A stretch of DNA of 64,000 nt from Gynurincola endophyticus. GTDB lineage: Bacteria; Bacteroidota; Bacteroidia; Chitinophagales; Chitinophagaceae. Positions 37,361-59,273 of this stretch are shown here, piece by piece (the stretch's first letter is position 1; every line of letters starts with the position of its first letter). The position numbers and the translations under genes were made by a program. Below the pieces are notes generated by a model. It ran no database searches. It was not told the DNA's origin and saw nothing but the letters and a program-made list of their open reading frames with translations. The DNA is taken from the NCBI RefSeq assembly GCF_003991195.1, contig NZ_RCWL01000001.1, forward strand, positions 558,001 to 622,000, read 5' to 3'.

Positions 37361-38368
37361 TTACAAAGAATTTCTCAGAATAACTTTTGTAGGATTTCGT
37401 TTAACAATTGTTTTATTTTCTGTAATGATCTGCGCCACTGTTTTACCCATTGCTTCAAAATCAGTTGAAATGACGGTAATACCATCTTCAAGAATTTCTT
37501 TGACATCAGTGTCATTATAGGAAATTAAACCAATGTCTTTTCCCAACTTCAGTTTCTTTTTTCTTGCGAGCTTAATCAACATCACATCATCCGTATCATA
37601 CCTGCTGAAGGTTATATAGGCATTTCCTTTTTTAAAAGTATTTTCATCGATTTCGGGCTGAATCATGTAAGGAAATGACAGCTCGTTACAATAATGTAAA
37701 AAACCGTCAATTACGAGTTTGGCATGAGTGGCTTCAGGATGTGCTACCAGTATTAGTTTTTTGTATTTGTTTAATTCGTTTTTCAGCTTGTGAAGGCTGT
37801 GATAGATATCGTGGCCATAATCCTGATAAACACAACTGTAATTGCCTGTGAGGCCCGGCTGGTTCAGGTCAATAATAATTCGTTTTTTTTCAGGAATCAT
37901 GTTCAGCACCGGTGCAACATCTTCTTTAAAAAAAGTGGCAATCACATAGTGAGTATAATTGCCAAGGTTTTCCCGTATCAGTTTTTCGAATACCTGATAG
38001 TTATGATGGTGAAAATAAATGTCGATATCCGCATTGCCTGCGATTTGGTTAAAAAGATTTCTGTAAAACTGCTCCCTTAAAATATTCATTTTATCCAAAA
38101 GGAGGAATATGCGAAAAGAATGTTCAATATGTTTTTTTCTTACGAAATATCCTTTTCTGTAAACAGATTCGATAATTCCTTTCTCAACGAGTTCGTTCAG
38201 GCCTTTAAGTAAAGTCTCCTTACTCATCTTTAGTTGCTCCTGTAGCTTTTTCAGAGAAGGAAGCTGATCACCAATCTGAAGATGATCATCATTGATAAGT
38301 CCGGTAATATAATCGGCCAGATGCTGATATTTTGTTTTTCCAATCGGCAGATTTCCAGAATCAGGCAT
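37361..38368 (-). CDS. GntR/LacI-hybrid transcriptional regulator of the PUL
   Basis: The 335-residue protein has a GntR-type winged helix (about 12-78: KYQHLADYITGLI, IGDQLPSLKKLQEQLKMSKETLLKGLNEL, GYFVRKK), followed by a periplasmic-binding-protein-like sensor domain as in LacI regulators (IRKKHIEHSFRIFLLL, VIATFFKEDV, IGLISYNDTDVKEIL, GITVISTDFEAMG). Such hybrids control sugar-utilisation loci in Bacteroidota. It is divergent from susC, and both promoters in the shared 200-bp region carry ACCAG-containing sites, so it probably represses both the locus and itself until an oligosaccharide or monosaccharide is bound. Confidence 0.88.
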   Translation of the reverse strand: MPDSGNLPIGKTKYQHLADYITGLINDDHLQIGDQLPSLKKLQEQLKMSKETLLKGLNELVEKGIIESVYRKGYFVRKKHIEHSFRIFLLLDKMNILREQFYRNLFNQIAGNADIDIYFHHHNYQVFEKLIRENLGNYTHYVIATFFKEDVAPVLNMIPEKKRIIIDLNQPGLTGNYSCVYQDYGHDIYHSLHKLKNELNKYKKLILVAHPEATHAKLVIDGFLHYCNELSFPYMIQPEIDENTFKKGNAYITFSRYDTDDVMLIKLARKKKLKLGKDIGLISYNDTDVKEILEDGITVISTDFEAMGKTVAQIITENKTIVKRNPTKVILRNSL

Positions 38369-43387: not shown

Positions 43388-44275
43388 ATGATAAAAATAA
43401 TTGCTCCATTTCTGCTGTTGATTTTATTCTCCTGTCAGAAAAGATATGAACTTTCTTCCATAGAAGATTTTAATGTTCATACAGATGCTAATAGTTATTC
43501 AGTTGGGGATACCGTAAGATTTTTTTTCGACGGTAATCCTGATAATATTGTATTCTGGTCAGGCGAAGACGGGCATGTTTACGACTACCGGTCACGTACT
43601 GCTGTTGAAGGAAATTCAATCGTACTCAATTTTAAAACTTTTTCTCAATTCGGAGAACCCGATGTGGAAAGCCTAAAGCTGCTCATCTCTACCGACTTTG
43701 CAGGTATTTATGATTCAGCACATGTAGCAGATGCTACATGGACAGACATTACTGACAGGGCAATTCTTTCAACCGGACAGGATCAGACCTCCTCAGGAGA
43801 TATAAACCTGAATGATTTTGCTTCGCTCAATAAAGATATGGTACTGGCTTTCCGTTACAAAACAGAAGTGATTAAACCCGCTACCACCCAAAACAGATGG
43901 GTTATACGAACTTTTGATTTGAAAAGCATCAACGCACAGGCTGCGGAAAGTATATTAGCGTCTATGTCAACTGCCGGATGGAAAGCCTTTAGTTTTCTGG
44001 AACCCGCTACCGCATGGTCAATTACTCCGCAACAGCTGATATCAGCAAGAAGTTTTACCAGTCTTGACGATGATTGGGTGATTACTAAATCATTTAACCC
44101 CAATGCTGTTGCTCCTGATAAAGGACAATCCGTTAAAAATATCTCTCAGAAGGTAGATGCTTTTACAAATGTGTTTAGTAAGCCTGGTACTTACAAAGTT
44201 GTTTTTGTAGCAACCAATGCGAATGTAAAAAAACAACAATCTATTGTTAGAGAAATCATAATCAATATACAGTAA
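43388..44275 (+). CDS. DUF5017 surface lipoprotein
   Basis: The 295-residue protein has a lipobox at C16 (LLILFSCQK). The mature part begins with a PKD/Ig-like segment (SYSVGDTVRFFFDGNPDNIVFWSGEDGHVYDYRSRT), followed by a beta-rich domain with AFRYKTEV. I recognise the layout of DUF5017 proteins encoded after susD in plant-glycan loci; they are probably auxiliary surface glycan-binding proteins. The gap to susD is 61 bases. Confidence 0.75.
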   Translation: MIKIIAPFLLLILFSCQKRYELSSIEDFNVHTDANSYSVGDTVRFFFDGNPDNIVFWSGEDGHVYDYRSRTAVEGNSIVLNFKTFSQFGEPDVESLKLLISTDFAGIYDSAHVADATWTDITDRAILSTGQDQTSSGDINLNDFASLNKDMVLAFRYKTEVIKPATTQNRWVIRTFDLKSINAQAAESILASMSTAGWKAFSFLEPATAWSITPQQLISARSFTSLDDDWVITKSFNPNAVAPDKGQSVKNISQKVDAFTNVFSKPGTYKVVFVATNANVKKQQSIVREIIINIQ

Positions 44276-44297: not shown

Positions 44298-46916
44298 ATG
44301 GCAGGTACTCAATCTCTATATAAGTCATTGTTAATCGTTCAGTTTTTGCTGATTACATCCTGCTCACTGCTTGCGCAGAATAATAGTGAGGTAGCAATCA
44401 GCGATAAAAAACTATCGGTAAAATGGCACATGACAAAGGATGGGTATAAGATTTCATCCATAGATCTTTATGGGAAAAGTATGCCAGCTTTGGAGCTTGA
44501 TACAGATGGAGAATACACTGTTTTGTATTCTGCCAGCAAACCCGATACTGCTGCGCAGCCTTTAAAAGATGGAAAGGGAAATTCCATTATTTTCCCGGAA
44601 CCCGAGTATCGTTATGTTGTTGGTAAATGGAGAGAAAGTACAGATTCGGTATCATTAAATACAGCAGGTACTGCCTATCACTTCTATCCTGAAAGATATG
44701 AGAAAAGAGGAGACAGTATACTCTTTATTAAGGAGAATAGTGAATTTTATATACGTTCTTCATGGAAGATAGATAATAATAGTGATATTCGTGTGAGTGT
44801 AACTGTTAAATCTTTTAAAGAAGGATATATTTCAGTTGCAACCCCTTCTCTTATTAAAGAAAAGCAAAGTGATTTTCAGTGGGCTGTTGTGCCCGGCGTA
44901 TGGCAGGGTAAAGCTGTTAATCCTGATTTTGTGAATGCTTTTGCTTATGGTCAGGGTATCCCTGCTATTCCTGTTCTCGCTAAGGAAAGAACAGCAGCTG
45001 CACTTACATCTATCTTAACTAATAAAAATGGAATCTCACTTGCCGTAACCGCTGAACCCGGTACGGGAAGAGATCCATGGGCCGACAATAAGGTTTCACA
45101 GGGTGAATGGTTACTAGGGCTTTCTTCTATGAATAGAAAAGGGGAGCTGACACCAACGCTTTATCATCCTGTATTGGGCGGAAAAAAATCTTATTTGAAA
45201 GCAGGGGATAGTCTCGTGTTTAATTTCAGATATACTATTCAAAACGATCACTGGTATAGCGTTTATAAACATGTTGTAAATAATATATACAAATTCCCTG
45301 ACTTTTTAAGGCTTAAAAAAACGAAGGAATCTTTGTCTGCAAGACTTCTAAGATTATATAATTATGTTATCAATGATAGTACATCAAGATGGAGAAACTT
45401 TGAATACAAAGATTTACTGATAGGAGCACAGGAATATCTTGGTGGCGTACATGATTCTGAAAAAGATGCGATTAAAAATGCCGATTATGGGGCAATGTGG
45501 ATGCTTTCGAATCTAACTGATGATTCTATTCTCATGAGCAGCAGACTGCCACAAGCTTTAGATTTTAAATATGCCCAGCAGAATACTTCAGACAGCTTTC
45601 TAAGAGGAGCTGCTGCCGGGCAATATTATCTTCATAAGTCTAAAAGATTTACAGAAGAATGGGGTCCCTATACAGAGCCAATAGCAACCACCTATTACAT
45701 GCTGCTGGATATTGGTAATATTTTATTATTTGAACCCAATCACCCGCAGCTGAAAAATGAACTTATTCTGGCCGCCGACTGGTTATTGAATAAAATTAAG
45801 TCAGATGGAAGTTGGGAGATTGCCTACGACAATACAACTTATCAACCGTTGTTTACTGACCAGCTGGATTACCGGCCAACTTTTTATGGTTTACTTGTAG
45901 CGTACCGGCTTACAGGAGATAAAAAATATCTTGACGGAGCAGTGAAAGGAGCGGGATGGTTTATCGATAACGCTGTGTCGAATGCTTACTTTTTAGGAGT
46001 TTGTGGCGATACAAGATTTGCCCCGGATTTTGCTACCGGACAAAGCGTACAGGCACTGCTGGATTTATATGATTGTACAAAAAATGAAAAGTATAAGAAA
46101 GCAGCATTAACAGTTGCTCAGATTTATACCACTTCAGTTTACACCCATCCTATTCCTTCAGAAAAAAAGAAAATGGTTGAAAGCAGGGTTGTATATGACT
46201 GGGAGATTAGTCAGGTAGGGCTCAGTTTTGAACACGGAGGCATTATAGGATCTGCGAATAGTCACGGGCCTATTTTATTAGCAAGCCATGCAGGTATGTT
46301 TGTACGCCTGTTTCAGATAACAAACGATTCGCTGTTTCTTAATATGGCACGTGCTGCCGCATGGGCCAGAGATGCATTTGTAGACCCGGCAACCGGAGTC
46401 GCTTCTTATTATTGGAATGCTATGAATAAAGGAGCGGGCCCGTTTCCACATCATGCATGGTGGCAGATCGGATGGATCACTGATTACCTGATAGCAGAAA
46501 CTTATCTGCGTTCTGCAGGTAAGATCGATTTTCCTGCGGGGTTTATAACTCCTAAAGTAGGTCCACATAAAACTTATGGATTCACTGAAGGTAAACTCTA
46601 CGGAAAGAAGGTAAAAATAAAAATGATACCGGATCTTATTCATCTTTCAGATGAATCTGTTGATTATATAACAGCTATAGACGCTACTGAAAATACTACC
46701 TATTTTATTTTACTGAATAATAGTGTGAATACACTTGAAACTACATTTAATATTAATCCTGATCAGTTAAAAAGGATTCTCAACTCTTCTTCAAAAAAAC
46801 TAAAAACGTCTTATCTGAACGAATCTGGGAAAGAAAAGTCATTGGGTGCTCTTTATGAATCGAAAATTGTACTGCCGCCTTCAGGTATGCTCACCATTAA
46901 GGTAAAGGCCGGCTGA
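44298..46916 (+). CDS. Secreted alpha-toroid enzyme A, family unassigned
   Basis: The 872-residue exported protein begins with a hydrophobic signal (LLIVQFLLITSCSLLAQ; lipoprotein or ordinary cleavage both possible). Residues about 30-340 are beta-rich. From about 345 to 770 the helices follow the repeating pattern of an (alpha/alpha)6 toroid (YYMLLDIGN, WLLNKIKSDGSWEIAYD, YGLLVAYRLTGDKKYLDGAVKGAGW, HAGMFVRLFQITNDSLF). A small C-terminal beta domain ends the chain. An HH pair at 718-719 (PFPHHAWWQIGW) aligns with YHH in paralogue B and with the single His of YNH in paralogue C. It probably cleaves a polysaccharide as a glycosidase or lyase. I cannot assign a CAZy family. Confidence 0.6.
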   Translation: MAGTQSLYKSLLIVQFLLITSCSLLAQNNSEVAISDKKLSVKWHMTKDGYKISSIDLYGKSMPALELDTDGEYTVLYSASKPDTAAQPLKDGKGNSIIFPEPEYRYVVGKWRESTDSVSLNTAGTAYHFYPERYEKRGDSILFIKENSEFYIRSSWKIDNNSDIRVSVTVKSFKEGYISVATPSLIKEKQSDFQWAVVPGVWQGKAVNPDFVNAFAYGQGIPAIPVLAKERTAAALTSILTNKNGISLAVTAEPGTGRDPWADNKVSQGEWLLGLSSMNRKGELTPTLYHPVLGGKKSYLKAGDSLVFNFRYTIQNDHWYSVYKHVVNNIYKFPDFLRLKKTKESLSARLLRLYNYVINDSTSRWRNFEYKDLLIGAQEYLGGVHDSEKDAIKNADYGAMWMLSNLTDDSILMSSRLPQALDFKYAQQNTSDSFLRGAAAGQYYLHKSKRFTEEWGPYTEPIATTYYMLLDIGNILLFEPNHPQLKNELILAADWLLNKIKSDGSWEIAYDNTTYQPLFTDQLDYRPTFYGLLVAYRLTGDKKYLDGAVKGAGWFIDNAVSNAYFLGVCGDTRFAPDFATGQSVQALLDLYDCTKNEKYKKAALTVAQIYTTSVYTHPIPSEKKKMVESRVVYDWEISQVGLSFEHGGIIGSANSHGPILLASHAGMFVRLFQITNDSLFLNMARAAAWARDAFVDPATGVASYYWNAMNKGAGPFPHHAWWQIGWITDYLIAETYLRSAGKIDFPAGFITPKVGPHKTYGFTEGKLYGKKVKIKMIPDLIHLSDESVDYITAIDATENTTYFILLNNSVNTLETTFNINPDQLKRILNSSSKKLKTSYLNESGKEKSLGALYESKIVLPPSGMLTIKVKAG

Positions 46917-46941
46917 TTATTAACGAAAAAATAAATGCTCT

Positions 46942-48375
46942 ATGAAACGAACCTTTTACTCCGGGTTATTAAACCGGTTGGTAATTTTTTTTACCGCTAT
47001 TATTTTGTTTGTTGCCTGTAACAAACCATTTGCAGATATGCAGGCTGATGACTTGCTGAACTTAAAAAATAGTTTTGCAGCAGCTGATGAGCCTGTAATA
47101 AATTTACCTGATTCTCCGGTTTCCGTAAGCCAGAAATATCAGGTGTTCATCAATGATATTCCAGTGAGGGTTTCAAAAGAAATCTGTTACGATTATATAG
47201 CTAATGGCGGAACCAGAGTAACACATTCTTCTTTATTTACTTATCAACCGGGCGCACAGATAAAAATTATAACAGATAGTTCTTTTTCTTCTTATACACT
47301 TTCTCCTCAAAGACTGGGAATATCTACTTCTCAGGTGGGAAATGAAATTACATTTACATTGCCGTCAGAGTATTACAATTTTGCAATCACATTTCCTGAT
47401 CGTGAACCATTGTTTCTCTTCTCCGCACCGGATCTGACTTCCTATAAAACCGGCGCAGTCGTTTTCGATAGTGGTGTTCATACTCCGGCAAATGGTGAAT
47501 TTCATTTACAATCGAATACTACTTATTACCTTGAAGAAGGTGCCGTGTTGAATGGAAAGGTGATTATATCGAATAAAACGAATGTCAAAATATTCGGAAG
47601 AGGGATGATTGATGACCGGCTTAATCCGGTGGTAGGTCACTTCCTGAAAATATACAACAGTAGTAATGTTGAAATTAAAGGAATTGGTATCAGACATGGA
47701 GCACTGGGATGGCAAACTGATTTTGTTAACTCTTCAAATATTCAGGTTGATTATATTAATCTGATGAGTTTTGGTCAGAATAACGACGGACTTGATATAG
47801 GAACAGGGTGTAAGAATATAAGTTTTAAAAATTGTTTCGTTGGTTCAGGCGATGATGCTTTCGGATGGCATGCAACAAATGCGATTGCTTATGGGCAAAA
47901 CCCTCTCGATAGTTCCTACGCAGAAAACTGCCTGGTATGGCAAACGGCAGGCTGCGGAATAAGAATTGGTTCTTCGCTGGAAGCTACAGAAGTGAAAAAT
48001 CTTCAGTTTAAGAATATTGATATAGCTAAAACCAGTAAAGGAATTTATCCTGTAGCAATACCACATTCAGATTGGGCAGATGTTCATAATCTGGTTTTTG
48101 AAAATATATACGATGAAGAGCCTTCAAATACAAAATTTGTACTAGCCTATATTAAGCAAACACATAACTCTAATCCTGTTTATCAACCAGGCTTCATCTC
48201 TAATATTCAGTTTATAAACTGCAACAGTTTTGCTACAAAAGCAGAGTTTGAAGGATATGATCCGATACATAAAATATCAGATATAACTTTTATTAACTGT
48301 ACGGTGGCAGGAAGGCCTATGCTTCAGTCAGATGTTGTAGCCAATGCATTTACAGAAAATATTATTGTACAATAA
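46942..48375 (+). CDS. GH28-like right-handed beta-helix lipoprotein
   Basis: The 477-residue lipoprotein (lipid Cys at 26 in ILFVACNK) has an N-terminal beta-sandwich (about 45-160), then a parallel beta-helix with regular rungs (INCT, KNCF and NVEIKGIGIRHGA repeats). The GH28 polygalacturonase landmarks are NNDGLDIG (about 280), SGDDAFGWH (about 301) and CGIRIGSS (about 337), corresponding to NTD, DD and RIK. The catalytic GHG His is not evident in the usual place, so substrate or mechanism may differ (GH49 is an alternative). It probably acts at the cell surface on a polyuronide-type backbone. Confidence 0.7.
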   Translation: MKRTFYSGLLNRLVIFFTAIILFVACNKPFADMQADDLLNLKNSFAAADEPVINLPDSPVSVSQKYQVFINDIPVRVSKEICYDYIANGGTRVTHSSLFTYQPGAQIKIITDSSFSSYTLSPQRLGISTSQVGNEITFTLPSEYYNFAITFPDREPLFLFSAPDLTSYKTGAVVFDSGVHTPANGEFHLQSNTTYYLEEGAVLNGKVIISNKTNVKIFGRGMIDDRLNPVVGHFLKIYNSSNVEIKGIGIRHGALGWQTDFVNSSNIQVDYINLMSFGQNNDGLDIGTGCKNISFKNCFVGSGDDAFGWHATNAIAYGQNPLDSSYAENCLVWQTAGCGIRIGSSLEATEVKNLQFKNIDIAKTSKGIYPVAIPHSDWADVHNLVFENIYDEEPSNTKFVLAYIKQTHNSNPVYQPGFISNIQFINCNSFATKAEFEGYDPIHKISDITFINCTVAGRPMLQSDVVANAFTENIIVQ

Positions 48376-48385
48376 GTTGTTTTAT

Positions 48386-51300
48386 ATGAACCATTCTCCG
48401 GAAAATAGAAATTATTCTTGTAAAAGATCAGGTAAGATTTCAAGCCTGTTGTTTCTTGTTGCTTTTGTATTCATCAGTTATGATGGGTTTTCGCAACAGG
48501 ATAAATATCTTATTGAAGCAGAAAAGTTTCAATTCAAAGGAGAATGGTTTGAAGAAAAAGACAGGAACAGCCTCGGAGGAACTTTATTAAGAGCTACCGG
48601 TGGAAAAAAGGATGAATCTACCGATGCTTTTACTTCTGTGAAAATATGGGAGGCCGGAACTTACGCCGTTTGGATGCGTACTCCAGACTACGAAGATCGA
48701 CCTTCTACCCGACAAATGCAATTGTCAGTGAACGGTGTATTGTGTGAACGAGCGGGAAAGCACGGCAAACCAGGGTTCTATTGGGAAAAAGTAGCTGAAA
48801 TTCCTTTAGAAAAAAAAGAGGTATTACTTCGTTTACATAATTTCAATTTCGGAAGATGTGACGCTATCCTTTTGTTGAAAGACAATAAAATAAATCCGAA
48901 TGATCTTGCTTTGATAGAAATAGGTAAATGGAGAAAAAATCCTGCTGTCTTATCAGTAATGTCTGAGAATAATCTTAATAGCAGTATTTACCTGCCTGTT
49001 ACAACGAATGCAAAAACAATAGCTTCACTTGAAAAAGGGCAGATACGTTTAAAATTCTTACAATTAACTGACAGGCAAAACGCAATTGTTTCGCGTACTG
49101 AAATTAAGTCAGGAAACGAATGGGTGTCGTTGCCGGGTGAACAGGAAGATCATAAAGTGTTTCTTTTAAATACATCTCTCAGTAAAGTCAATTATCAGAA
49201 ATTCTACCCTGCATGGAATAATTCTGGAGGTAACAGTTATTTTGAATTTGATGAAAAGAAATATACTGTTACCACTGATGGTGCTGATCTTAATCCTTTT
49301 CTTGCAGGTAATTTCAGTGAAGCGATACCTTACAATGTACAGCAGCTCGATAATGAAACTATTCAGGTCCAATACATAACACGTAATAAATCTCTCATTA
49401 CCGGTTTCTGGAGCCTGGCAGATAATGGAACTCATCTGAAACTCCGTTTAGTATGTCAGACAGCTGAAGCCGGGTATTACAGTATCGGTGTTGCTGCTTT
49501 TCATCCTTTTATGGAACATCAGGTAAGTAATGTATTGATGCCACCAATGTTTCAGTATAAGAGGATTCCTGAAAACCCGCAAATGCTGGTATCGGCTATC
49601 ATGCCGCAACCTTTAAGTATTGTGGAAACAAATGTAAATGACAAAAAATGGTCATTGTTTGTAACGGCTGACACTGCAACTTTTAGCCAGGATTGGGGAA
49701 GTTCAAAATATTCTCCAATAGGATTTTCTATGAAGAATGAAAATAATCTGGTACAACCGGTTGCCTTTGCTCCGGTATTAGGAATGGCAGATTCAAAATA
49801 TGACGCCGGTGAACTAATTGACCGGGAATTTATAATAGGTATTGTTAATGACTCCTGGACCAGAGCGTTGTCGTACATCTCCGATTCTGTATATCAGGTA
49901 AAAGATTATCGCAGGCAGAAGGAAGAATCGCTGACGGAAACAATTTTTAATATATCTGATCTGATTGATAATGAAGAATCCGGTGGGTGGGATTCCCGTC
50001 TGAAAGGTTTTTATGATATAGAAGGTAACCCTGAAACTGCACCTACTGTTGTGAATGCAACACCACTGGCAAATATAGCATTGCCATTACTTGCCGGAAG
50101 TGAATCGCAATATCTTAGCAGAGCGCTTCCAACCATTGAATATACTTTGTCAAGAAGCGGTTACAGATGGGCGATTGATGTGGTGCCAACCGGTTATAAT
50201 AACTCCAGGAAAACATTGGAATTAAATCCACTCCGCTCACAGTTTACCACATCGTATTATGAGGGGCTTAACCGTTTGTTAAATAACTTGAATCCCTGGT
50301 TAAAAGAAATTGCGCTTCCCGGTGATAGCCTTCGTAAAGCGGCAGGATACTCTACAGCTTTTATACCATGGGTACAGGCCGCCGCCGCTTATCGATTAAC
50401 AGGAAACAATAAATGGCTGAAATTGGCCGAGGAAGGCGCTGGTAAATATATAGATGCACAGATTTATAATAATTCTACAGTTCCGTTAAGTCATACACCT
50501 TTTTATAATGCGTCTTTTTACGCACCCTGGTGGCATCTGACAGATTTATATGAGATCACTAAAAATAATAAATACCTGAAAGCTGCGGAATACGCAAGTC
50601 ATTTCACTATATCGGGTATACGATCATTTCCTTATGTAAAAGACGAACAGCAGTTAATTCATCCGGGTAATAACTTTGAAGGAAATACACATATCTGGTG
50701 GAAAGGCGATAAACCTTACCGATTGGGTTTTCCGCGTAAAAACGGAGATGCTCCGGAGAAGAATATACCTGCATGGGAAGTGTCACCTGTTGGTTTGGGA
50801 TTTGAACAACCGTCAACATATTTCCTGACAGATGCATCGAAAAATGTTCGTCCTGTTTTTATGAGTAGCTGGGCCCCGCATTTACTCAGATTGTATCAAC
50901 ACTCCGGAAATAAAATTTTTGAAATATACGCGCGTAATGCGGTCATCGGCCGATTTTCAAATTATCCGGGTTATTATGCAACAGGATTTACGGATATAAC
51001 ACTGAAAAAAGATTTCCCTTATAAAGGTCCTGATGTTAGTTCTGTTTATTATCATCATATTCCGCCACACCTGGCTTTTACGCTTGACTTTCTGATTACT
51101 GAAGCTATTCAGCGTTCCGGTGGAAATATTGAATTCCCTTATAGTATTCAGGAAGGTTTTGTATGGTTCGCCAACCGGATTTATGGTGGCGGGTATGGGA
51201 AAGTTTTTGGAGATGAGCATGTTAAACTATGGATGAAAAAAGGATTGGTTACTTCTGCTAACCCTTCAGTGAATTATGTAACAGCAGTTTCTGAAAATAA

Positions 51301-51823
51301 CTTCTGGATATTATTATCCGGAGAATCAGAAACGGATGAAGATGTAGAAATACACTGGTCTGCTGAAACCGGAGCCACTTCAGATGGTACAGCTGTTATT
51401 TTTGATGCGAATAATAATAAAACTACTATTAAAATTGTTGGTGGTAAATCTACCCTGAAAATACCTGCAAAAGGTTTTCGTGCAGTTCGTATACCGCTTA
51501 AAAATAAAAACAACTTTACTGCAGCTTCACCTCTGAAAAAAGGAATGTATGTTTTTGATATGGGGGCTCCATGGGGAAAAGTGTTTGTATTCAGAATCCG
51601 TTCTCCGTTTGGATGGGATTCAATCTATGGTTTTGCCGAAACTGCTCCCATCGAAGGCGCTGAAGTAAAGATCACTTTTAATGGTAAAGCTGAAAAGATT
51701 ACAGCTTATCCGTTTGAATGGAGTTTCTATAAAATTAAAACAGACGAAAAAGTAGAATTGAAACTGGAATTAAAACAGGGAAGCAAAATACAGACAAAAA
51801 ATATTTCGATATCAGGAGACTAA
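48386..51823 (+). CDS. Secreted alpha-toroid enzyme B with N-terminal CBM-like domain
   Basis: The 1145-residue protein runs from ATG 48386 (14 codons upstream are also open but overlap the preceding gene). A hydrophobic signal spans about 20-37. Residues about 40-165 look like a carbohydrate-binding beta-sandwich (DKYLIEAEKFQFKGEW, WEAGTYAVWMRTP, GRCDAILL). A beta-rich domain follows to about 510, then an (alpha/alpha) toroid to about 930 (LYEITKNNKYLKAAEYAS, HLLRLYQHSGNKIFEIYARNA), and C-terminal beta domains. The H890-H891 pair in SSVYYHHIPPHLAF lines up with enzyme A, and the whole toroid resembles enzyme C. Catalytic family unassigned. Confidence 0.6.
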   Translation: MNHSPENRNYSCKRSGKISSLLFLVAFVFISYDGFSQQDKYLIEAEKFQFKGEWFEEKDRNSLGGTLLRATGGKKDESTDAFTSVKIWEAGTYAVWMRTPDYEDRPSTRQMQLSVNGVLCERAGKHGKPGFYWEKVAEIPLEKKEVLLRLHNFNFGRCDAILLLKDNKINPNDLALIEIGKWRKNPAVLSVMSENNLNSSIYLPVTTNAKTIASLEKGQIRLKFLQLTDRQNAIVSRTEIKSGNEWVSLPGEQEDHKVFLLNTSLSKVNYQKFYPAWNNSGGNSYFEFDEKKYTVTTDGADLNPFLAGNFSEAIPYNVQQLDNETIQVQYITRNKSLITGFWSLADNGTHLKLRLVCQTAEAGYYSIGVAAFHPFMEHQVSNVLMPPMFQYKRIPENPQMLVSAIMPQPLSIVETNVNDKKWSLFVTADTATFSQDWGSSKYSPIGFSMKNENNLVQPVAFAPVLGMADSKYDAGELIDREFIIGIVNDSWTRALSYISDSVYQVKDYRRQKEESLTETIFNISDLIDNEESGGWDSRLKGFYDIEGNPETAPTVVNATPLANIALPLLAGSESQYLSRALPTIEYTLSRSGYRWAIDVVPTGYNNSRKTLELNPLRSQFTTSYYEGLNRLLNNLNPWLKEIALPGDSLRKAAGYSTAFIPWVQAAAAYRLTGNNKWLKLAEEGAGKYIDAQIYNNSTVPLSHTPFYNASFYAPWWHLTDLYEITKNNKYLKAAEYASHFTISGIRSFPYVKDEQQLIHPGNNFEGNTHIWWKGDKPYRLGFPRKNGDAPEKNIPAWEVSPVGLGFEQPSTYFLTDASKNVRPVFMSSWAPHLLRLYQHSGNKIFEIYARNAVIGRFSNYPGYYATGFTDITLKKDFPYKGPDVSSVYYHHIPPHLAFTLDFLITEAIQRSGGNIEFPYSIQEGFVWFANRIYGGGYGKVFGDEHVKLWMKKGLVTSANPSVNYVTAVSENNFWILLSGESETDEDVEIHWSAETGATSDGTAVIFDANNNKTTIKIVGGKSTLKIPAKGFRAVRIPLKNKNNFTAASPLKKGMYVFDMGAPWGKVFVFRIRSPFGWDSIYGFAETAPIEGAEVKITFNGKAEKITAYPFEWSFYKIKTDEKVELKLELKQGSKIQTKNISISGD

Positions 51824-51835
51824 AATTCAAGCATT

Positions 51836-53254
51836 ATGTGGTATAGAGTAATTATAAAAACTTTATCGTTCTGTTGTGGCCTTAGTGCTTCTGCCTTGGC
51901 ACAGTCTGCAGGTGATAATGATAAAATAGCTGCTTCGCAGGGTGGAGCAACACCACTGATTTTCGATCTGAAGAAAAAGGATATTACTGCGATAAAACCT
52001 GGTGATTTCAATGATGATCGTGAAACAACAGTAAGAAATGGTATGCCCAACTTTTTTGATAAGGTGAAAAAGAAGCAACCAGTTACTGTTGCTTTTATTG
52101 GTGGAAGTATTACTCAGGGTGAAAAATGTTACCGCTTACAAACAGCAAAATATATACAGGATAAATACCCTGATGTGAAATTCAGCTGGGTAAATGCGGG
52201 TGTATCTGGCACAGGAACCGACCTTGGAGCATTTCGTTTACAGGAACAGGTACTGCAATATAAACCGGATCTGATATTTATTGAGTTTGCGGTAAACAGG
52301 GCTTATGCTGAAGGAATGGAAGGAATTATCAGACAGATAATAAAGGCAGATGCATCAACGGATATCTGTCTCATTTATACGATTCTTAACGGACAAACGA
52401 AAATTTATCAGGAAAACAAAATTCCGGAAAATATACTTCGACTGGAAAAACTGGCTGAACACTACCGGCTACCTTCAGTTCATCTTGGGATGGAGGCTGC
52501 TGCAATGGAAAAAGAAGGAAAACTGATATGGAAAGGAGATAAAGAACAAAAAGGGAAAATATTATTTTCAACGGATGGTATACATCCGATTGAAGCAGGT
52601 GGTAACTTGTATGCGGCTGCTATCGCAAGGGCACTTAATAAAAATTCTTCTCAGGAAACTATTCCCACTTGTCACAATTTAAGCGCTCCGCTATTAACAG
52701 ATAAGTGGGAAAATGTAAAAATGATCCGCCCTGATGAACTGGCTGCGTTTGATGAAAACTGGAAACTAATTGATACTAAAAGTAAAGGTTTTTTACAGCG
52801 ATTTTCTAACTGGTTCGATCAGGTGGCATTTGCTGAAATACCAGGCGCATCATTTTCTTTCAGTTTTGAAGGCGATATGTTTGGTTTCTTCGATATTGGT
52901 GGCCCTGAGGTTGGCCAGCTTGAATTTATCGTTGATGGAAAGCCCGTTCACCTGAAAAAGATGAATACCCCGGAAATTACCTATTACATTAATGGCAATA
53001 ACAACGAAGAATCTACTCTTAACAGGTTTAATATTTATTGCAATAACCGGTATCGTGGCCAACATGACCTCATTGAACTGGAATATGGAAAACATGAAGT
53101 AACTGTTAAGATCTCTGATAAAAAATCGGATAAAGAAACTATACTTACTCCTGTTAATGCAAAAGATATCAATGCTAATCCCGAAAAGTATGACAGAACT
53201 GTTGTTTATATAGGTAAAATACTAATCAGAGGTAACGTTTTAAAAAGAAGCTAA
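51836..53254 (+). CDS. SGNH/GDSL esterase with C-terminal beta domain
   Basis: The 472-residue secreted protein has a signal peptide ending near ALAQSAG. The SGNH blocks are present: catalytic Ser in AFIGGSITQGE, Gly in NAGVSGTG, Asn in EFAVNRA, and the Asp-x-x-His pair in STDGIHPIEAGG. The C-terminal 180 residues form a beta-sandwich (FSFEGDMFGFFDIGGPEVGQLEF), as in acetyl-xylan or rhamnogalacturonan acetylesterases. It probably removes acetyl groups. Its stop overlaps the next start (TAATG). Confidence 0.85.
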   Translation: MWYRVIIKTLSFCCGLSASALAQSAGDNDKIAASQGGATPLIFDLKKKDITAIKPGDFNDDRETTVRNGMPNFFDKVKKKQPVTVAFIGGSITQGEKCYRLQTAKYIQDKYPDVKFSWVNAGVSGTGTDLGAFRLQEQVLQYKPDLIFIEFAVNRAYAEGMEGIIRQIIKADASTDICLIYTILNGQTKIYQENKIPENILRLEKLAEHYRLPSVHLGMEAAAMEKEGKLIWKGDKEQKGKILFSTDGIHPIEAGGNLYAAAIARALNKNSSQETIPTCHNLSAPLLTDKWENVKMIRPDELAAFDENWKLIDTKSKGFLQRFSNWFDQVAFAEIPGASFSFSFEGDMFGFFDIGGPEVGQLEFIVDGKPVHLKKMNTPEITYYINGNNNEESTLNRFNIYCNNRYRGQHDLIELEYGKHEVTVKISDKKSDKETILTPVNAKDINANPEKYDRTVVYIGKILIRGNVLKRS

Positions 53255-53928
53255 TGAACTACTTCAAAATAAATATCATTTTTATTACGATGTTATTACT
53301 GCTCATTGCTAAGAATAATGTCGCTCAAAATCTGACCCAACAGCAGAAATGGGAACAGAAGCTGGAGAAATATCGGAAACAGGATTCCATCAAACCTCCG
53401 CATTCCGGAAATATTTTATTCCTCGGTAGCTCTACCATTGAAAACTGGAAAGCATTAGAGCATGATTTCGCTGAAAAAAAAGCTATTAACAGAGGGGTGT
53501 CCGGTACAAAAATGATTGATCTTTTCAATTATAAAGAGCGTCTGATTGATCCATATAACCCGGCGAAAATATTTATTTATGAAGGTGATAATGATATTGC
53601 TCTGGGTTGGTCAGCTGATAGTATAACTAAAGTGTTCAAGGAATTATTCTACTATATAAGATCAAAAAAACCTGATGCCACGATCTATGTGATTTCTATT
53701 AAGCCTTCGCCGGCAAGAGAAAAACATATAGTTAAATTGCTTAAAACAAATGAATTGCTGGAGCAATTCATATCAGAACAAAAAAACGCGGGATACATAG
53801 ATGTATACAACCCTATGCTGGTAAGTGGAAAACTGGTTCCTGCTTATTACCGCCCCGACAATTTGCATCTTACCGAAGAAGGTTACGAGGTATGGAAACA
53901 GGTAATAGGTGCATATATCAATCAATAA
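53254..53928 (+). CDS. Small SGNH/GDSL esterase
   Basis: The 224-residue secreted protein has a signal peptide (MNYFKINIIFITMLLLLIAKNNVAQ). The SGNH blocks are FLGSSTIENW (Ser), NRGVSGT (Gly), IYEGDNDIALG (Asn) and RPDNLHLTEEGYEVW (Asp, His). It is the platelet-activating-factor-acetylhydrolase-like type, shorter and different from the upstream esterase, so it probably removes an ester at another position. It is translationally coupled to that gene (TAATG). Confidence 0.87.
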   Translation: MNYFKINIIFITMLLLLIAKNNVAQNLTQQQKWEQKLEKYRKQDSIKPPHSGNILFLGSSTIENWKALEHDFAEKKAINRGVSGTKMIDLFNYKERLIDPYNPAKIFIYEGDNDIALGWSADSITKVFKELFYYIRSKKPDATIYVISIKPSPAREKHIVKLLKTNELLEQFISEQKNAGYIDVYNPMLVSGKLVPAYYRPDNLHLTEEGYEVWKQVIGAYINQ

Positions 53929-53945
53929 CCCCCTAAACATTATTC

Positions 53946-56444
53946 ATGATAAAGAAATTATTTTTCGTTTTTGTATTTGCTTTACCGGCTGTTACCTGTT
54001 TTTCTCAGGTATATAAGGATAAAAATGTTGATGGGGAAACGCGTGCGCGTGATCTGTTGTCTAAAATGACATTGGAAGAAAAAATTGATTACATCGCAGG
54101 GTATAATCAATTTTATATCCGTGGCATAGAGCGTTTGGGATTACCTGAAATCAAACTTACTGATGGCCCGGTAGGCACACACAAAGATGGTAAAGCGGTA
54201 GCTTATCCTGCAAGTGTGTTATCTGCTGCTACCTGGGATACCAGTCTTGTTTATGAACTGGGTAAACAATTAGGACGAGATTCAAGAGCAAGAAGTGTAC
54301 ATGTGCTGCTGGCTCCCGGCGTAAATATTATCAGAAGCCCTTTGGGTGGAAGAAATTTTGAATACTTTACCGAAGACCCTTTCCTGAATTCCAGAATTAC
54401 AGTAGCCTACGTAAAAGGTTTGCAGGATCAGAAGGTGGTGGCAACGGTAAAACACTACGCTGCCAATAATCAGGAGTGGGACAGAAATAATGTGAGCAGT
54501 GATATTGACGAAAGAACCCTTCACGAAATTTATCTTCCTGCCTATAAAGCTGCAATACAAGAAGCCGGGGCCGGATCGGTGATGAATAGTTATAATCCGA
54601 TTAACGGTGAACATGCTACTCAGAACAATTATTTGAACAATGTAGTGCTGAAACAGCAATGGAAATTTGATGGTTTCCTGATGAGCGATTGGTCTTCAAC
54701 ATATGATGCCGTTGCAGCAGCTAATGGCGGACTAGATCTTGAAATGCCTACTCCTAAACACATGAACCGAAAAAACCTGATACCTGCTATTGAGTCAGGA
54801 TTAGTGAAAGAATCGGTGATAGATGATAAAGTTCTCAGAATACTGCGAATCATTTTCAGATTCGGATTTTTTGATAATCCACAATACGATAGTTCAGTTC
54901 CGCTCGATAATCCTCAGGGAGCAAAAGCAGCGTTGGAACTGGCGCGTGCCGGTATCGTACTGTTGAAAAATGAGAAAAATCTGTTACCATTAGATCAGAC
55001 GAAAATTAAATCCATCGCTGTAATCGGGCCGAATGCGAATAATTATATTTCAGGAGGAGGTAGTTCGTATACATTCCCTTTTAGTTCAGTGTCTGTTTTG
55101 CAGGGAATTAAAGATCATAGCAGCAATGTTCAGGTAAATTATGCTCCCGGAGTTCCGACACTGAATGAAACTGTTTTTAACGCTGTTTTTTATACGGAAA
55201 AAGGGAGTAATGTAAAAGGGTTGAAAGCATCTTATTTTCCCAATACCCAGTTGAGAGGTAATCCTGAAATAGAAAAGATTGACAGTATTGTTTATATAGG
55301 AAACGGTTGGCATATAGCTGCAGAGAATAAAGGTATTCCCTATGATCACTGTTCTATGCGATGGACAGGTGTGATCCGTCCTGAGAAAACAACAAATTAC
55401 CGGTTTATTGTAAAAGGTTTCGATGGTTTCCGTCTCAAAGTTGATACAGCTATGGTCATTAATGAGTGGCGTAATCAGGGAATTACTACCCGTGAAGTGG
55501 TACTTCCTCTGAAAGCCGGAGTAGAATATCCGGTAACATTGGAGTACTTCGCAGGAGCACATCCTGTTGATATTGCTTTCGGATGGAGAGAAGATAAGTT
55601 ATTATTTGATGAAGCGATCAATATTGCTAAAAACGCGGATGTGGCTATCGTGAATATCGGCTTCAATGAAAGTAGTGAAAGAGAAAGTAACGACAGGCCT
55701 TTTGAACTGCCCGAATATCAGGATAGCCTCATACAATGCATCGTAAAAGCAAATCCCAACACTATTGTACTGTTAAACGCAGGAGGAAATGTTGATATGA
55801 CTCCATGGTTGAATCAGATACCTGCTTTGATGCATATCTGGTATTCAGGGCAGGAAGGCGGAACTGCTGTGGCGGATCTGATTTTCGGAAAAGTAACGCC
55901 GTCCGGTAAGTTACCAGTTTCCTTTGAAAGAAAATGGGAAGATAATCCCGCTTATCCCTACTACTATGATTCTGCAGGTAGCAAACGTGTAGCGTACAAA
56001 GAAGGCTTGTTCATGGGCTACAGATATTATGATACGAGTAGCGTTAAACCTCAGTTCCCATTTGGGTTCGGACTTTCCTATACAACATTCAGCTATAGTA
56101 AATTAAAAGTGAAAAATATCGGCACTGCCGGAAAGCCACTTTATGAAATGCGTTTTACAATAAAAAATACAGGTAACTATGATGCTCATGAAGTGGCTCA
56201 GTTATATGTAAAGCCTTTGAATGCTCAAGTGGTAAGACCTGTTAAAGAGCTTAAAAAGTTCGCCAAAGTATTTATTCAAAAAGGTCAACAGAAGGAAGTT
56301 GTATTCACGCTTGATGCTGATGCCTTTAAATATTACAAAATCGAGTTAAAGGATTTTGATTTTGATGCCGGAGCGTATGAAATTCTTATCGGCACTTCTT
56401 CTCAGGATATCCGGTTGAAGAAAAATATTAAAGTAAAAAAATAG
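53946..56444 (+). CDS. GH3 glycoside hydrolase with PA14 insertion
   Basis: The 832-residue protein has a signal peptide (MIKKLFFVFVFALPAVTCFSQ). The (beta/alpha)8 domain (about 30-310) contains KLTDGPVG, VATVKHYAANNQEWDRN and the nucleophile D248 in FLMSDWSSTYD. In the second domain, a PA14-type insertion (about 420-555, LKASYFPN... to ...DIAFGWRE) interrupts the alpha/beta sandwich, and a FnIII-like domain ends the chain. It is probably an exo-beta-glucosidase or xylosidase that acts on released oligosaccharides in the periplasm; sugar specificity is not readable. Confidence 0.92.
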   Translation: MIKKLFFVFVFALPAVTCFSQVYKDKNVDGETRARDLLSKMTLEEKIDYIAGYNQFYIRGIERLGLPEIKLTDGPVGTHKDGKAVAYPASVLSAATWDTSLVYELGKQLGRDSRARSVHVLLAPGVNIIRSPLGGRNFEYFTEDPFLNSRITVAYVKGLQDQKVVATVKHYAANNQEWDRNNVSSDIDERTLHEIYLPAYKAAIQEAGAGSVMNSYNPINGEHATQNNYLNNVVLKQQWKFDGFLMSDWSSTYDAVAAANGGLDLEMPTPKHMNRKNLIPAIESGLVKESVIDDKVLRILRIIFRFGFFDNPQYDSSVPLDNPQGAKAALELARAGIVLLKNEKNLLPLDQTKIKSIAVIGPNANNYISGGGSSYTFPFSSVSVLQGIKDHSSNVQVNYAPGVPTLNETVFNAVFYTEKGSNVKGLKASYFPNTQLRGNPEIEKIDSIVYIGNGWHIAAENKGIPYDHCSMRWTGVIRPEKTTNYRFIVKGFDGFRLKVDTAMVINEWRNQGITTREVVLPLKAGVEYPVTLEYFAGAHPVDIAFGWREDKLLFDEAINIAKNADVAIVNIGFNESSERESNDRPFELPEYQDSLIQCIVKANPNTIVLLNAGGNVDMTPWLNQIPALMHIWYSGQEGGTAVADLIFGKVTPSGKLPVSFERKWEDNPAYPYYYDSAGSKRVAYKEGLFMGYRYYDTSSVKPQFPFGFGLSYTTFSYSKLKVKNIGTAGKPLYEMRFTIKNTGNYDAHEVAQLYVKPLNAQVVRPVKELKKFAKVFIQKGQQKEVVFTLDADAFKYYKIELKDFDFDAGAYEILIGTSSQDIRLKKNIKVKK

Positions 56445-56450
56445 CTTTAT

Positions 56451-59273
56451 ATGAGGTTGATTACTTTATTGATATTGATATTGTCATACGCTGACATGTA
56501 CTCACAGGTTAAATTGTCTGATGATCGTAAGAACATTCAGATTAACCGTAATGGAAAATCTTACACATTTTCTCTTGAGTTTTTGATATTGTATAATAGT
56601 GAAAATCCTCATATTGCATTGAAACCTTCCGGCTTAAAAAAGGTGTCTTACAATATACCTACCTGGAAAGTCAAAGATTCATTACTGGCAGACTATGAAC
56701 AGGCTGATGTGAAGGCTTCTGTTGCAGGGGATGGCTTTGATGATAAAATATTGCGCAGTAAAGTTGAATTAAGAACTGTAAGTATTTATAATTCAGGAAG
56801 CCAGACTTTCATCACTCCTGAAACTGTGAATGTTGCTGAGGATAGTGTGGAAGTTTTATATTCCGGAAATGACGGTTTTACCTTTAAAGCGGTGATATCT
56901 TTTAAAACTGATTACTATCCTCGTATCACTTTTTACCTCAATACACTTGTAAAGGGATATTATAGTATTGGTTATATAGGTGCTCCTGCTATTGCTGTTG
57001 ATGAGTTTGAAGAGAGCTGGCAACCTTTGATCTGGACCGAAAAAAGAATTCCTGAAAAACCATATCTCACACCATCTTACATGGCAACATTACCTGCCAC
57101 TTTAGTAAATGATGGATACAATACAATTGGTGTATTGGCAGCTCCGGAACATCTGCCATTTCAACCCCTGCCGCTAATGGATAATAGCCAGTTTGGTGTA
57201 TTACTGTTAAATCCGTCTGGAAAACTTCAACCGCAGATTTTTGCACCCATGATGGGAGGATACAACTCTTTCATGGATAAAGGAGAACAGTTCGTTTTTT
57301 CATATAACATGATTGTTGAACCGGAGAGTTTAACCGGAACTTATGAAAAAATTGCAAAGAATATATTCGGTTTTAGTAACTACCGTAAAAATTCAATTGC
57401 ATCAATGAATACTGTTTTGGATAATATAGTTAATTATTCAAAAACTTCTTACGCATGGTTTGTTGACAGTCTGAAAGGGTTTGCTTATTCGACCGATGTT
57501 CCAGGAGCTGTTAAAAATGTATCAAGTTTAAATCCTTTAGAGCTGGCTATTGTACGTGACGATCAGGAAATGTTTGAAAAAAGAGCTTATCCTTTAATGG
57601 AATTTATGTTGTCAAGAGAAAAGTTTTTATTTAGTCTTGATAGTAATCAGAAAATACAATCCCCTTCAAGAAAGCTCAGAGGGCCGATTGCTCCTTTATC
57701 AGAGTTAGCTGCCCTGTATAATATTTTTGGTAAACAGAATGCCTTTTACAAAGAACTGGCACAGAAAGAATTTAAAAATACCAGAGTAAGAAATCTGGAT
57801 GATAATGAAAAAGGTTATAACTGGATCAATGCAATGTTTTTATACAGAATGACGAATGATACCAATTATCTTTCATTGAGTAAGAAGCTGGCAGATAAAT
57901 ACCTCGAAACACGTGTTTTAAAGCGCGCTCAGAAGTTTGGAGATGATCCATTGTATGGATCCCATTTCTTTTGGCCAACCTTTACCAATCATTGGGCTGA
58001 ATTACTTGAACTTTATGAAATAACCGGCGAAACCCAATATCTCGATGCTGCCCGGGATGGAGCACGTCATTATGCATTGTTTACATGGATGGTTCCTGCT
58101 ATACCAGACAGTATGGTTACTGTCAATAAAGACGGCAAAGCGCCAATGTACTGGTATCTAAAACAAAAAGGCCATGAACAAATGTATTATCCCGAAGAAA
58201 AAGTACCGGCATGGAGACTCTCTGAAATCGGTTTAACGGCTGAGTCTTCCGGAACATCTACCGGACACCGAGGTATTTTTATGGCAAATTTTTCTCCCTG
58301 GATGTTAAGAGTAGGCTTTTACGCGAAGGATAGTTTTCTTATTCATCTGGCTAAAGCAGCACTGGTTGGACGGTATACTACTTTTCCTGGTTATCACATC
58401 AATACAGAACGTACCACCGCCTATGAAAAGGAAGATTTTCCTTTAAGAGAACATACCAGGCAAAGTGTGAATTCATTTCACTATAACCATATTCTTCCTA
58501 TGGCGTCTATGTTGCTGGATTATATAGTTTCGGATGTTTTTGTAAAAAGTAACGGCAGTATCAGTTTTCCAAATGAATATATTGAAGGATATGCCTATTT
58601 GCAGAACAAGTTTTACGGAGCATCAAAAGGAAGTTTTTACGGAAGAGAAAATGTACAATTATGGATGCCCGAAAGATTGCTTTCAATTGATAACATAGAG
58701 TTGAATTATTTGTCAGCAAGGTCATCAGATACTTTATATATAGCCCTTTCAAATCAATCGACAGAAAAAGTAATGTCTTCAGTAAAAATTAATACCGAAT
58801 GGGTAAAGGCAGGTGAAAATACCCATGTTAAATTATTAAATGCTGCCGGCAAGGCTAAATGGCAAGGTAACGGCGTTATTTCTGTAGAAGTTCCTGCAAA
58901 CGGGTTAACGGCTATTGCTATTTCGCCTGTTAAAATACTGTCGCCTTTTCAACAAAAAATTTTATCAGTAAAACAAGATACAAGTAAAGATTTTACTGAG
59001 ATAAAAGAAGGCAATACGAAAGCATTCCTCTTTAAGCTGGGCGAATTGGGAAGGAGATTGTTTGTATATCTGGAAGACGACGATAATCAATGGCGTGAAG
59101 TAAAGTTATGCTATAAATATCAAAATGGTGAAGAAAAATCAATAGTGAAAAAGGAATATCCATTCGAGTTTACAGTGGATATAAACAATCATCTCCTGGT
59201 TAGTTTTTCATTAGAACTAAAAGATAAAGAAGGAAAAAAAGTGCAAACCAACACATATTTTTTGGGACAATAA
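56451..59273 (+). CDS. Secreted alpha-toroid enzyme C, paralogue of enzyme B
   Basis: The 940-residue protein has a signal peptide (MRLITLLILILSYADMYSQ). A beta-rich N-terminal part extends to about 330 and an (alpha/alpha) toroid to about 710 (LAALYNIFGKQNAFYKEL, WINAMFLYRMTNDTNYLSLSKKLADKYL, HWAELLELYEITGETQYLDAARDGARHY), with C-terminal beta domains. FSPWMLRVGFYAKDSFL, YNHILPM around H680 and NYLSARSSDTLYIAL correspond closely to segments of enzymes A and B. It lacks the CBM-like N-terminal domain of B. It starts 6 bases after the GH3 stop. Probable glycan-cleaving enzyme of an unrecognised family. Confidence 0.6.
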   Translation: MRLITLLILILSYADMYSQVKLSDDRKNIQINRNGKSYTFSLEFLILYNSENPHIALKPSGLKKVSYNIPTWKVKDSLLADYEQADVKASVAGDGFDDKILRSKVELRTVSIYNSGSQTFITPETVNVAEDSVEVLYSGNDGFTFKAVISFKTDYYPRITFYLNTLVKGYYSIGYIGAPAIAVDEFEESWQPLIWTEKRIPEKPYLTPSYMATLPATLVNDGYNTIGVLAAPEHLPFQPLPLMDNSQFGVLLLNPSGKLQPQIFAPMMGGYNSFMDKGEQFVFSYNMIVEPESLTGTYEKIAKNIFGFSNYRKNSIASMNTVLDNIVNYSKTSYAWFVDSLKGFAYSTDVPGAVKNVSSLNPLELAIVRDDQEMFEKRAYPLMEFMLSREKFLFSLDSNQKIQSPSRKLRGPIAPLSELAALYNIFGKQNAFYKELAQKEFKNTRVRNLDDNEKGYNWINAMFLYRMTNDTNYLSLSKKLADKYLETRVLKRAQKFGDDPLYGSHFFWPTFTNHWAELLELYEITGETQYLDAARDGARHYALFTWMVPAIPDSMVTVNKDGKAPMYWYLKQKGHEQMYYPEEKVPAWRLSEIGLTAESSGTSTGHRGIFMANFSPWMLRVGFYAKDSFLIHLAKAALVGRYTTFPGYHINTERTTAYEKEDFPLREHTRQSVNSFHYNHILPMASMLLDYIVSDVFVKSNGSISFPNEYIEGYAYLQNKFYGASKGSFYGRENVQLWMPERLLSIDNIELNYLSARSSDTLYIALSNQSTEKVMSSVKINTEWVKAGENTHVKLLNAAGKAKWQGNGVISVEVPANGLTAIAISPVKILSPFQQKILSVKQDTSKDFTEIKEGNTKAFLFKLGELGRRLFVYLEDDDNQWREVKLCYKYQNGEEKSIVKKEYPFEFTVDINNHLLVSFSLELKDKEGKKVQTNTYFLGQ

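Follow-up and report, generated by a model that had tools for sequence, protein, structure and literature searches.

Three large open reading frames, encoding proteins A, B and C, lie in one PUL of Gynurincola endophyticus, and the locus raises the question of what these proteins are and which step of glycan breakdown they might carry out. In the window, the whole stretch of 64,000 nucleotides of G. endophyticus DNA that was analysed, the PUL extends over positions 37361-63260, and all its genes are encoded on the plus strand except that of the GntR-type regulator, which lies on the minus strand; from the SusC-like receptor to the SSS symporter the genes follow each other in the order of Table 1. 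The ORF list contains A, B and C at the places given in the original prediction. B was counted from the ATG at 48386 (1145 aa), the longest frame beginning at 48344 and yielding 1159 aa. For the GH28-like protein, the nearest NCBIfam model is that of alpha-D-galacturonidase BT4155, with 29.5 bits against a cut-off of 800. The locus points to a little-known bacterial breakdown of an acidic, possibly plant-derived, glycan. A second SusC/SusD-like unit starts at 63567, at the edge of the window.

Table 1. Genes of the locus and selected domains and residues of A, B and C (window positions)
Feature	Position	Strand	Basis
GntR-type regulator, head of locus	37361..38368	-	hmmscan
SusC-like TonB-dependent receptor, 1059 aa	38565..41744	+	ORF; named by sequence and position
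SusD-like lipoprotein, 531 aa	41731..43326	+	ORF; named by sequence and position
DUF5017 protein	43388..44275	+	hmmscan, 1.7e-58
Protein A, 872 aa	44298..46916	+	ORF, AlphaFold model, homologs
A Glu645, constant in 163/163, fifth long loop	46230..46232	+	alignment, model
A Arg670, constant in 163/163, helix 10	46305..46307	+	alignment, model
A His719, constant in 163/163, start of helix 12 (last toroid helix)	46452..46454	+	alignment, model
A Asp729, constant in 163/163, inside helix 12	46482..46484	+	alignment, model
GH28-like protein	46942..48375	+	hmmscan Pfam/NCBIfam
Protein B, 1145 aa; core as in A and C, with additional N-terminal domain and C-terminal extension	48386..51823	+	ORF, alignment
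B N-terminal domain, about 170 aa after signal	48386..48956	+	sequence comparison
B His891, equivalent of A His719	51056..51058	+	alignment
SGNH/GDSL esterase 1	51836..53254	+	hmmscan
SGNH/GDSL esterase 2	53254..53928	+	hmmscan
GH3 enzyme with PA14 insert	53946..56444	+	hmmscan Pfam/NCBIfam
Protein C, 940 aa; architecture as A, longer C-terminal beta part	56451..59273	+	ORF, BLASTP, AlphaFold model
C His680, equivalent of A His719	58488..58490	+	alignment
PF12831 FAD-dependent oxidoreductase, 759 aa, without export segment	59301..61580	+	hmmscan
SSS (sodium:solute) symporter, 555 aa	61593..63260	+	family scan

Relationship of A, B and C to each other and to known families

Local similarities among the three proteins had been noticed in the original prediction, which took B and C for the closest pair. 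In BLASTP comparisons the likeness is global and covers most of their length, and B and C gave the best score (217 bits, 25% over 830 columns, E 3e-62) when compared with A and B (123 bits, E 2e-32) or A and C (106 bits, E 2e-27). A profile of 11 A-clade rows aligned to a profile of 7 C and 2 D rows with a probability of 100 and an E-value of 1.1e-40 over 666 columns, and the pairwise and profile E-values together indicate homology far beyond chance. Searching the organism's own genome with C at E 0.01 recovered only C, B and A, a profile of A, B and C recovered the same three proteins only, at 1e-10, and the plasmid search with C gave no match. A tree of 31 sequences, obtained by a quick method with SH-aLRT values and rooted at the midpoint, contains clades A, B and C and a fourth clade, D, adjoining C. 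The clades of A, B and C are old and distinct, each with its own conserved residues, which fits their description as related but distinct copies; a difference in specificity appears probable. Nearly all homologs begin with a hydrophobic segment (A 76/77, B 42/43, C 12/12). A, B and C are three anciently diverged members of one family with export-like N-termini, presumably enzymes. The sequence ITSC in protein A of the window resembles a lipoprotein signal, but only 3 of the 77 A homologs have kept it, and this reading was rejected.

The claim that these proteins belong to no recognised family is supported by hmmscan, in which no Pfam or NCBIfam model passed its cut-off for A, B or C. A matched GH88 (PF07470) over 91 residues with 23.4 bits against a cut-off of 26.6, and in a six-frame count this stretch together with its neighbours reached a borderline 26.8 bits over 85 of the 352 model positions; PF07470 was not listed for B or C in hmmscan. 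A also approached the C5-epimerase model (20.4 bits, cut-off 23.3), and the GH127 model (PF07944), the only Pfam match for B and C, missed its cut-off of 24.9 in all three proteins (A 16.5, B 16.8, C 18.1 bits). NCBIfam at E 1 yielded a single, meaningless match to A, with B and C left unmatched. In the PDB, single sequences of A, B and C gave nothing at E 1, and searches with profiles of 76 and 51 sequences detected GH76 and other toroid proteins, with best E-values of 4e-5 and 5e-6; as these profile matches span at most about 110 positions, they reflect a common helix pair. Membership in GH127 or GH76 was rejected, and membership in GH88 appears unlikely, the likeness being confined to this local helix pair. 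AGE-type 2-epimerases, GH76, GH88 and GH127 have the same toroid, but their sequence likeness to A, B and C stays within about 110 positions and below the Pfam cut-offs in hmmscan. GH127 enzymes possess conserved catalytic/zinc cysteines, and no cysteine occupies a position constant in at least 95% of 163 sequences of the toroid family.

Lyase families were compared in the same way. No PL27 chain was found in the PDB at E 10 with the profiles of 76 and 51 sequences, and PL27 is kept as an architectural likeness only, not as a family to which A, B and C belong by sequence. The PcRGLX domain of PL26 was not listed for A, B or C in hmmscan at E 1. When compared by hhalign with two PL26-like proteins, probabilities of 0.1 and 0.5 per cent were obtained, and PL26 membership was rejected on account of these values under 1%; the PL26-like comparison protein L138 matches the PL26 structure 5xq3 with E 7.5e-231. 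Up to E 10, the profile searches of the PDB listed no GH154 chain (BcGDH, BT_3677, 8OI4). The family of the three copies is real and well supported, and is one without a match in the libraries searched (Pfam, NCBIfam, PDB). A whole unassigned family can thereby be named, with a model and residues good enough for the choice of mutants.

Predicted fold and conserved residues

AlphaFold models were built for A from an alignment of 76 sequences (pLDDT 91.6, pTM 0.92) and for C from 51 sequences (pLDDT 83.3, pTM 0.89, several loops being weak). According to DSSP, the model of A consists of an N-terminal beta domain, an (alpha/alpha)6 toroid at about 346-738 and a C-terminal beta domain, the toroid containing 12 helices joined by six long and five short loops, and the model of C has the same domain order. 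Structural comparison with VIA-align gave Z-scores of up to 24.7 for A and of 12.9 for the toroid rows of C. The anticipated architecture of a toroid between beta parts is therefore present in both modelled proteins, A and C; for B it is supported by alignment, and B probably holds the same toroid core.

Of the 163 sequences used to analyse residue conservation, 89 belong to A, 52 to B, 20 to C and 2 to D. Six polar or aromatic residues are constant in all of them, namely Trp111, Trp365, Glu645, Arg670, His719 and Asp729 (A numbering). The HH or NH motif foreseen at the last toroid helix was found at its start (H718-H719 in A, H890-H891 in B and N679-H680 in C; the helix comprises 719-738 in A and 678-699 in C by DSSP on the models), and mapping of this histidine pair showed that its second member is constant in 163 of 163 sequences. 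The proposed SPW/SSW..LLRL stretch holds as SPW in C and SSW in B but not in A, where SHA aligns with the B motif; the stretch carries the constant arginine (670/835/620 in A/B/C) in all 163 sequences. Near the end of the proteins, the (N/D)Yx(T/S)A strand occurs as predicted at 789-793 in A, 963-967 in B and 752-756 in C, and its tyrosine is kept in 28 of 31 sequences. Residues constant in at least 98% of the A clade are distributed over the long loops (70 of 196), helices (56 of 185), short loops (0 of 12), N-terminal beta part (34 of 289) and C-terminal beta part (13 of 128), a pattern expected for an active site on the long-loop face.

In Foldseek, PL27 BACCELL_00875 ranked first and second for A (E 1.8e-11 and 7.3e-11, 833 and 841 columns), the whole-chain match having a TM of only 0.31 and an rmsd of 14 A. 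This L-rhamnose-alpha-1,4-D-glucuronate lyase (PDB 5no8/5nok) is a Bacteroides enzyme for an acidic glycan and, as described in PMC8377490, consists of a beta domain followed by an (alpha/alpha)6 barrel. Both of these parts are also present in A and C, whereas A, B and C carry an added C-terminal beta domain and the profiles of 76 and 51 sequences show no detectable sequence likeness to PL27. In VIA-align, the toroid of A was matched best by cellobiose 2-epimerases (Z 24.7, 331 residues, 3.7 A), with GH76 (22.6), unsaturated glucuronyl hydrolase (20.8) and PL27 (20.7) below them. The VIA-align list for C was led by matches of its N-terminal domain to galactosaminidases (Z 15.6) and included PL27 (Z 13.5, 460 residues, 7.5 A), the sole one below 10 A rmsd among the listed matches with more than 400 aligned residues. 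The exo-rhamnogalacturonan lyase of PL26 (PcRGLX, PDB 5xq3) has beta domains and a toroid, as A and C do, and was also in the list for C (Z 13.6), but at an rmsd of 26.6 A. PL27 was absent from the best 50 Foldseek matches for C. The structural comparisons make the fold class clear, but they do not decide among the possible reactions.

Foldseek rows 3-13 for A were dextran dextrinase, GH65, 1,2-alpha-L-fucosidase and cellobiose phosphorylase, enzymes of GH15/GH65/GH94/GH95 type in which a beta-sandwich, a toroid and a C-terminal beta domain follow each other in the order seen in A, and the Foldseek matches listed for C include 1,2-alpha-L-fucosidase and GH65. It is accordingly quite plausible, at somewhat less than even odds, that A, B and C constitute a new glycoside hydrolase family of exo-glycosidases with this beta-toroid-beta arrangement, in which Glu645 would act as general acid and the base would vary by clade or be water-assisted by His719. 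The local Pfam likeness to the GH88 and GH127 toroids and the profile likeness to GH76 are in line with such hydrolases; identity to the GH15/GH65/GH94/GH95-type enzymes is about 10%, and neither a profile match to them nor any other sequence family match was obtained. In a classical glycosidase both carboxylates would be expected to be constant. Only Glu645 and Asp729 are constant acids in the 163 sequences and the latter lies inside a helix, leaving one constant acid in the active-site loops, which argues mildly against an ordinary two-carboxylate hydrolase.

The best toroid Z-scores of A, those with epimerases and isomerases, are in favour of a further explanation, by which A, B and C would not cut bonds but would be uronate dehydratases or C5-epimerases, taking the C5 proton of a terminal uronate and then losing water or re-adding the proton, like former GH154 members. 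According to PMC12269599, the GH154/uronate dehydratases (BcGDH, BT_3677) are uronate-directed Bacteroides proteins formerly taken as hydrolases, a GH154 protein and BT_3677 form a 4,5-double bond by dehydration, and GH154 genes often lie beside GH88/GH105. These reports keep dehydration alive as a third choice, but for A, B and C it seems quite unlikely: no sequence match to GH154 was listed in the PDB profile searches, and the usual GH154 neighbour, GH88/GH105, is missing from the toroid loci surveyed in the 14 genomes described below. The 50 VIA-align matches listed for A and for C contain no GH154 chain, although a family missing from such a list may still be related in structure.

Distribution and genomic partners of the toroids

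Toroids were present in 14 of 147 sampled genomes of the family of G. endophyticus, eight of which have A, B and C, one A and B, three A only and two D only. Their presence is nested, and A looks like the core to which B and C are add-ons. A phylum-wide sample gave matches in 10 of 395 genomes, with toroids in only four of these; the remaining six match B's N-terminal domain only, a domain with a weak golvesin-like match (E 0.053) that is common to PF12831 flavoproteins bearing signal-like N-termini. When 84,980 species genomes were scanned with two patterns, 296 A-clade relatives were detected, and the best 80 of these form the set of named loci. Seventy-nine of the 80 bear what we take to be Bacteroidota taxon names, the remaining one being 'bacterium A37T11', and the toroid family is the core of a recurrent Bacteroidota PUL type.

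The original prediction was silent on a partnership of the toroids with flavoprotein and symporter. A relative of the window flavoprotein (E < 1e-100) occurs in all 14 toroid genomes, against 4 of the remaining 133 (Fisher 2e-16, or 3e-13 by genus, genomes being treated as independent despite kinship), and in each of the 14 its coordinates put no more than 4.5 kb between it and a toroid. In genome G002, where A+B and C are in two loci, each locus has a flavoprotein, and the flavoprotein adjoins C even without A and B beside it (L044, the C locus of G002). An SSS gene is in the locus of 12 of the 14 toroid genomes; for the A+B loci of G002 and G101 the sequence retrieved reaches only into, or barely past, the flavoprotein gene, and no SSS gene was seen in L044. 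Around the best 80 of the 296 A relatives, a flavoprotein was found in at least 49 loci, SSS in at least 60 (at least 61 with fused copies), B in at least 44 and C in at least 16, all lower bounds because no flank extends more than 10 kb from A.

Gene fusions also connect A with its neighbours: in L043 and L113 one reading frame encodes both A and SSS, in L131 both A and GH97, and in L106 both A and a CelD_N-domain protein. A sequencing error could mimic a fusion, but with four cases and three partners this is unlikely for all of them. The fusion to SSS is the most telling, as it suggests this symporter as the carrier of A's product, and the fusion to GH97 counts in favour of the exo-glycosidase explanation given above.

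In contrast to the toroids, none of 38 relatives of the window flavoprotein has a hydrophobic N-terminus, which makes periplasmic cutting, import and a cytosolic redox step the likely order of events. The same observation weighs against a redox-coupled cutting by two proteins, in which the PF12831 flavoenzyme would oxidise a sugar hydroxyl and the toroid would eliminate the activated glycoside, since the two proteins would be kept apart; moreover, the window locus contains no exported flavoprotein. The steady partnership with PF12831, the occurrence of B's N-terminal domain on flavoproteins with signal-like N-termini, and locus L155, which holds such a flavoprotein together with an ApbE flavin transferase and A, would all suit this oxidise-eliminate scheme, which we nevertheless regard as very improbable. 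Among PDB chains, the flavoprotein resembles 43 residues of flavocytochrome c3 in its FAD-binding stretch alone, so that no reaction can be inferred from PDB relatives, and the entries listed in literature searches on PF12831 and on flavoproteins in PULs state no glycan role for this family.

Proposed reaction sequence and possible substrate

We tentatively and by a narrow margin prefer, with a probability of roughly 0.4, to regard A, B and C as periplasmic exo-eliminases of PL27-like architecture rather than as hydrolases. This preference is based on the first rank of PL27 in the whole-chain Foldseek search for A, on the constant His, Arg and Glu and on the acidic context; the lack of sequence likeness to lyases and the better toroid scores of epimerases and GH76 speak against it. 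GH88/GH105 is the usual partner of a lyase. The toroid loci of the 14 surveyed genomes yielded no GH88/GH105 gene, the PF07470 matches listed there being A itself, and this absence counts against elimination, separates these loci from PL27 and favours hydrolysis.

As eliminases, A, B and C would be periplasmic exo-enzymes, each removing different residues from a single glycan that is acidic, bears uronates and is acylated. The active site would be on the side of the toroid that carries the six long loops, its constant core being Glu645, Arg670 and His719, and elimination would take place next to a uronate, where Arg may hold the carboxylate, His may take the C5 proton and Glu or water may protonate the leaving group; PL27, the structurally solved enzyme at the top of the Foldseek ranking for A, works by this kind of reaction. 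The SSS symporter would then import the acidic sugar released, on which the PF12831 flavoenzyme would act in the cytosol. A might yield the product that symporter and flavoenzyme handle, and B and C might strip further substituents, aided by esterases, GH97, GH3 and GH28.

It is conceivable, if rather unlikely, that toroids, SSS symporter and PF12831 flavoenzyme form one undescribed catabolic module. In this scheme the toroid would release an altered or unsaturated sugar acid by elimination, the symporter, fused to A in two genomes, would bring it into the cell, and the flavin enzyme would prepare it for central metabolism in the role usually played by GH88/GH105 together with an NAD(P)-dependent reductase; B and C would fit the module to more decorated glycans. 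One operon supplies three natural variants of the toroid, tied to the PF12831 flavoenzyme family; once A is solved, this PUL type would be explained, and an unrecorded route of sugar-acid catabolism could come to light.

As to the substrate, 44 of the best 80 of the 296 loci are from Chitinophaga (17), Pedobacter (16) and Sphingobacterium (11), genera common in soil and on plants, and plant acidic glycans are for this reason a first guess; gut Bacteroides are also among the hosts (L063, L064). The hints at an acidic sugar from the GH28 match and from a transporter match are both weak. Helper genes vary among the toroid loci and comprise esterases, GH28, GH3, GH97, GH2, SASA esterase, sulfatase, GH92, GH31 and GH42; among these, GH28, the esterases, GH2 and, in some loci, sulfatases make up the acidic-glycan context. 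The four flavoprotein loci that are free of toroids (L134-L137, L137 being a contig of 5.2 kb) contain GH95, GH29, GH2, SASA and one SSS. Two of the four toroid-less loci encode an MFS carrier that scores best with the galactonate transporter model, though under that model's cut-off, and one of these two loci also encodes a DHDPS-type aldolase. Taken together, helper genes and toroid-less loci are modest hints of a sugar acid as the shared product.

B N-terminal domain and flavoproteins

The N-terminal domain of toroid protein B is also carried by proteins of about 600-680 aa elsewhere, and a profile search placed it at 8 places in 7 genomes (E 7e-28 to 6e-21). Half of these places, all 4 that were checked, hold PF12831-type flavoproteins (Pfam 2, BLAST 4), which displayed signal-like N-termini when judged by eye. 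The domain is possibly a glycan-binding domain, a link between toroid and flavoenzyme. In the fetched locus L155, consecutive genes encode a signal-bearing PF12831 flavoprotein, an ApbE flavin transferase (1.6e-78), a CelD_N-domain protein and toroid A, and this gene row hints at extracytosolic flavin chemistry in that locus.

Coordinates of features in the window and in fetched stretches (L numbers) of other genomes
Feature	Stretch	Coordinates
In-frame fusion with toroid A	L043	13502-17794
In-frame fusion with toroid A	L113	8261-12532
In-frame fusion with toroid A	L131	8141-12526
In-frame fusion with toroid A	L106	10001-14515
CelD_N-domain protein	L047	15610-17709
CelD_N-domain protein	L155	10144-12081
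CelD_N-domain protein	L106
CelD_N-domain protein	L120
362-aa protein	L036	7973-9061
794-aa protein	L050	11968-14352
B N-terminal domain	window	48386-48956
B N-terminal domain	L145
B N-terminal domain	L153
B N-terminal domain protein	L155	7230-9032
B N-terminal domain protein	L157	8812-10593
B N-terminal domain protein	L158	8731-10554
B N-terminal domain protein	L159	7365-9290
Flavin gene row	L155	7230-14721
Putative second SusC/SusD-like unit	window	63567-64000
Putative second SusC/SusD-like unit and phosphatase-like proteins	L140	1567-9307

Partners and neighbors of toroid A

Toroid A is joined in frame to an SSS symporter (twice, L043 and L113), to GH97 (once, L131) and to a CelD_N-domain protein (once, L106). 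A protein of about 650-700 aa, with CelD_N at its N-terminus as sole match, recurs in toroid loci (7 of the 80 loci with the best of 296 A relatives, >150 bits) and perhaps represents their second new enzyme family. Two further proteins within toroid loci, of 362 and 794 aa, gave no Pfam match at E 1.

Because sulfatase-like genes, identified by sequence starts, adjoin A in L079 (borne out by Pfam), L107, L117 and L126, some of the loci without B and C, sulfated glycans are suggested there.

Window edge

Another SusC/SusD-like unit appears to begin at the window edge, followed by two proteins, one metallophosphatase-like and one alkaline-phosphatase-like, all named by sequence reading alone.
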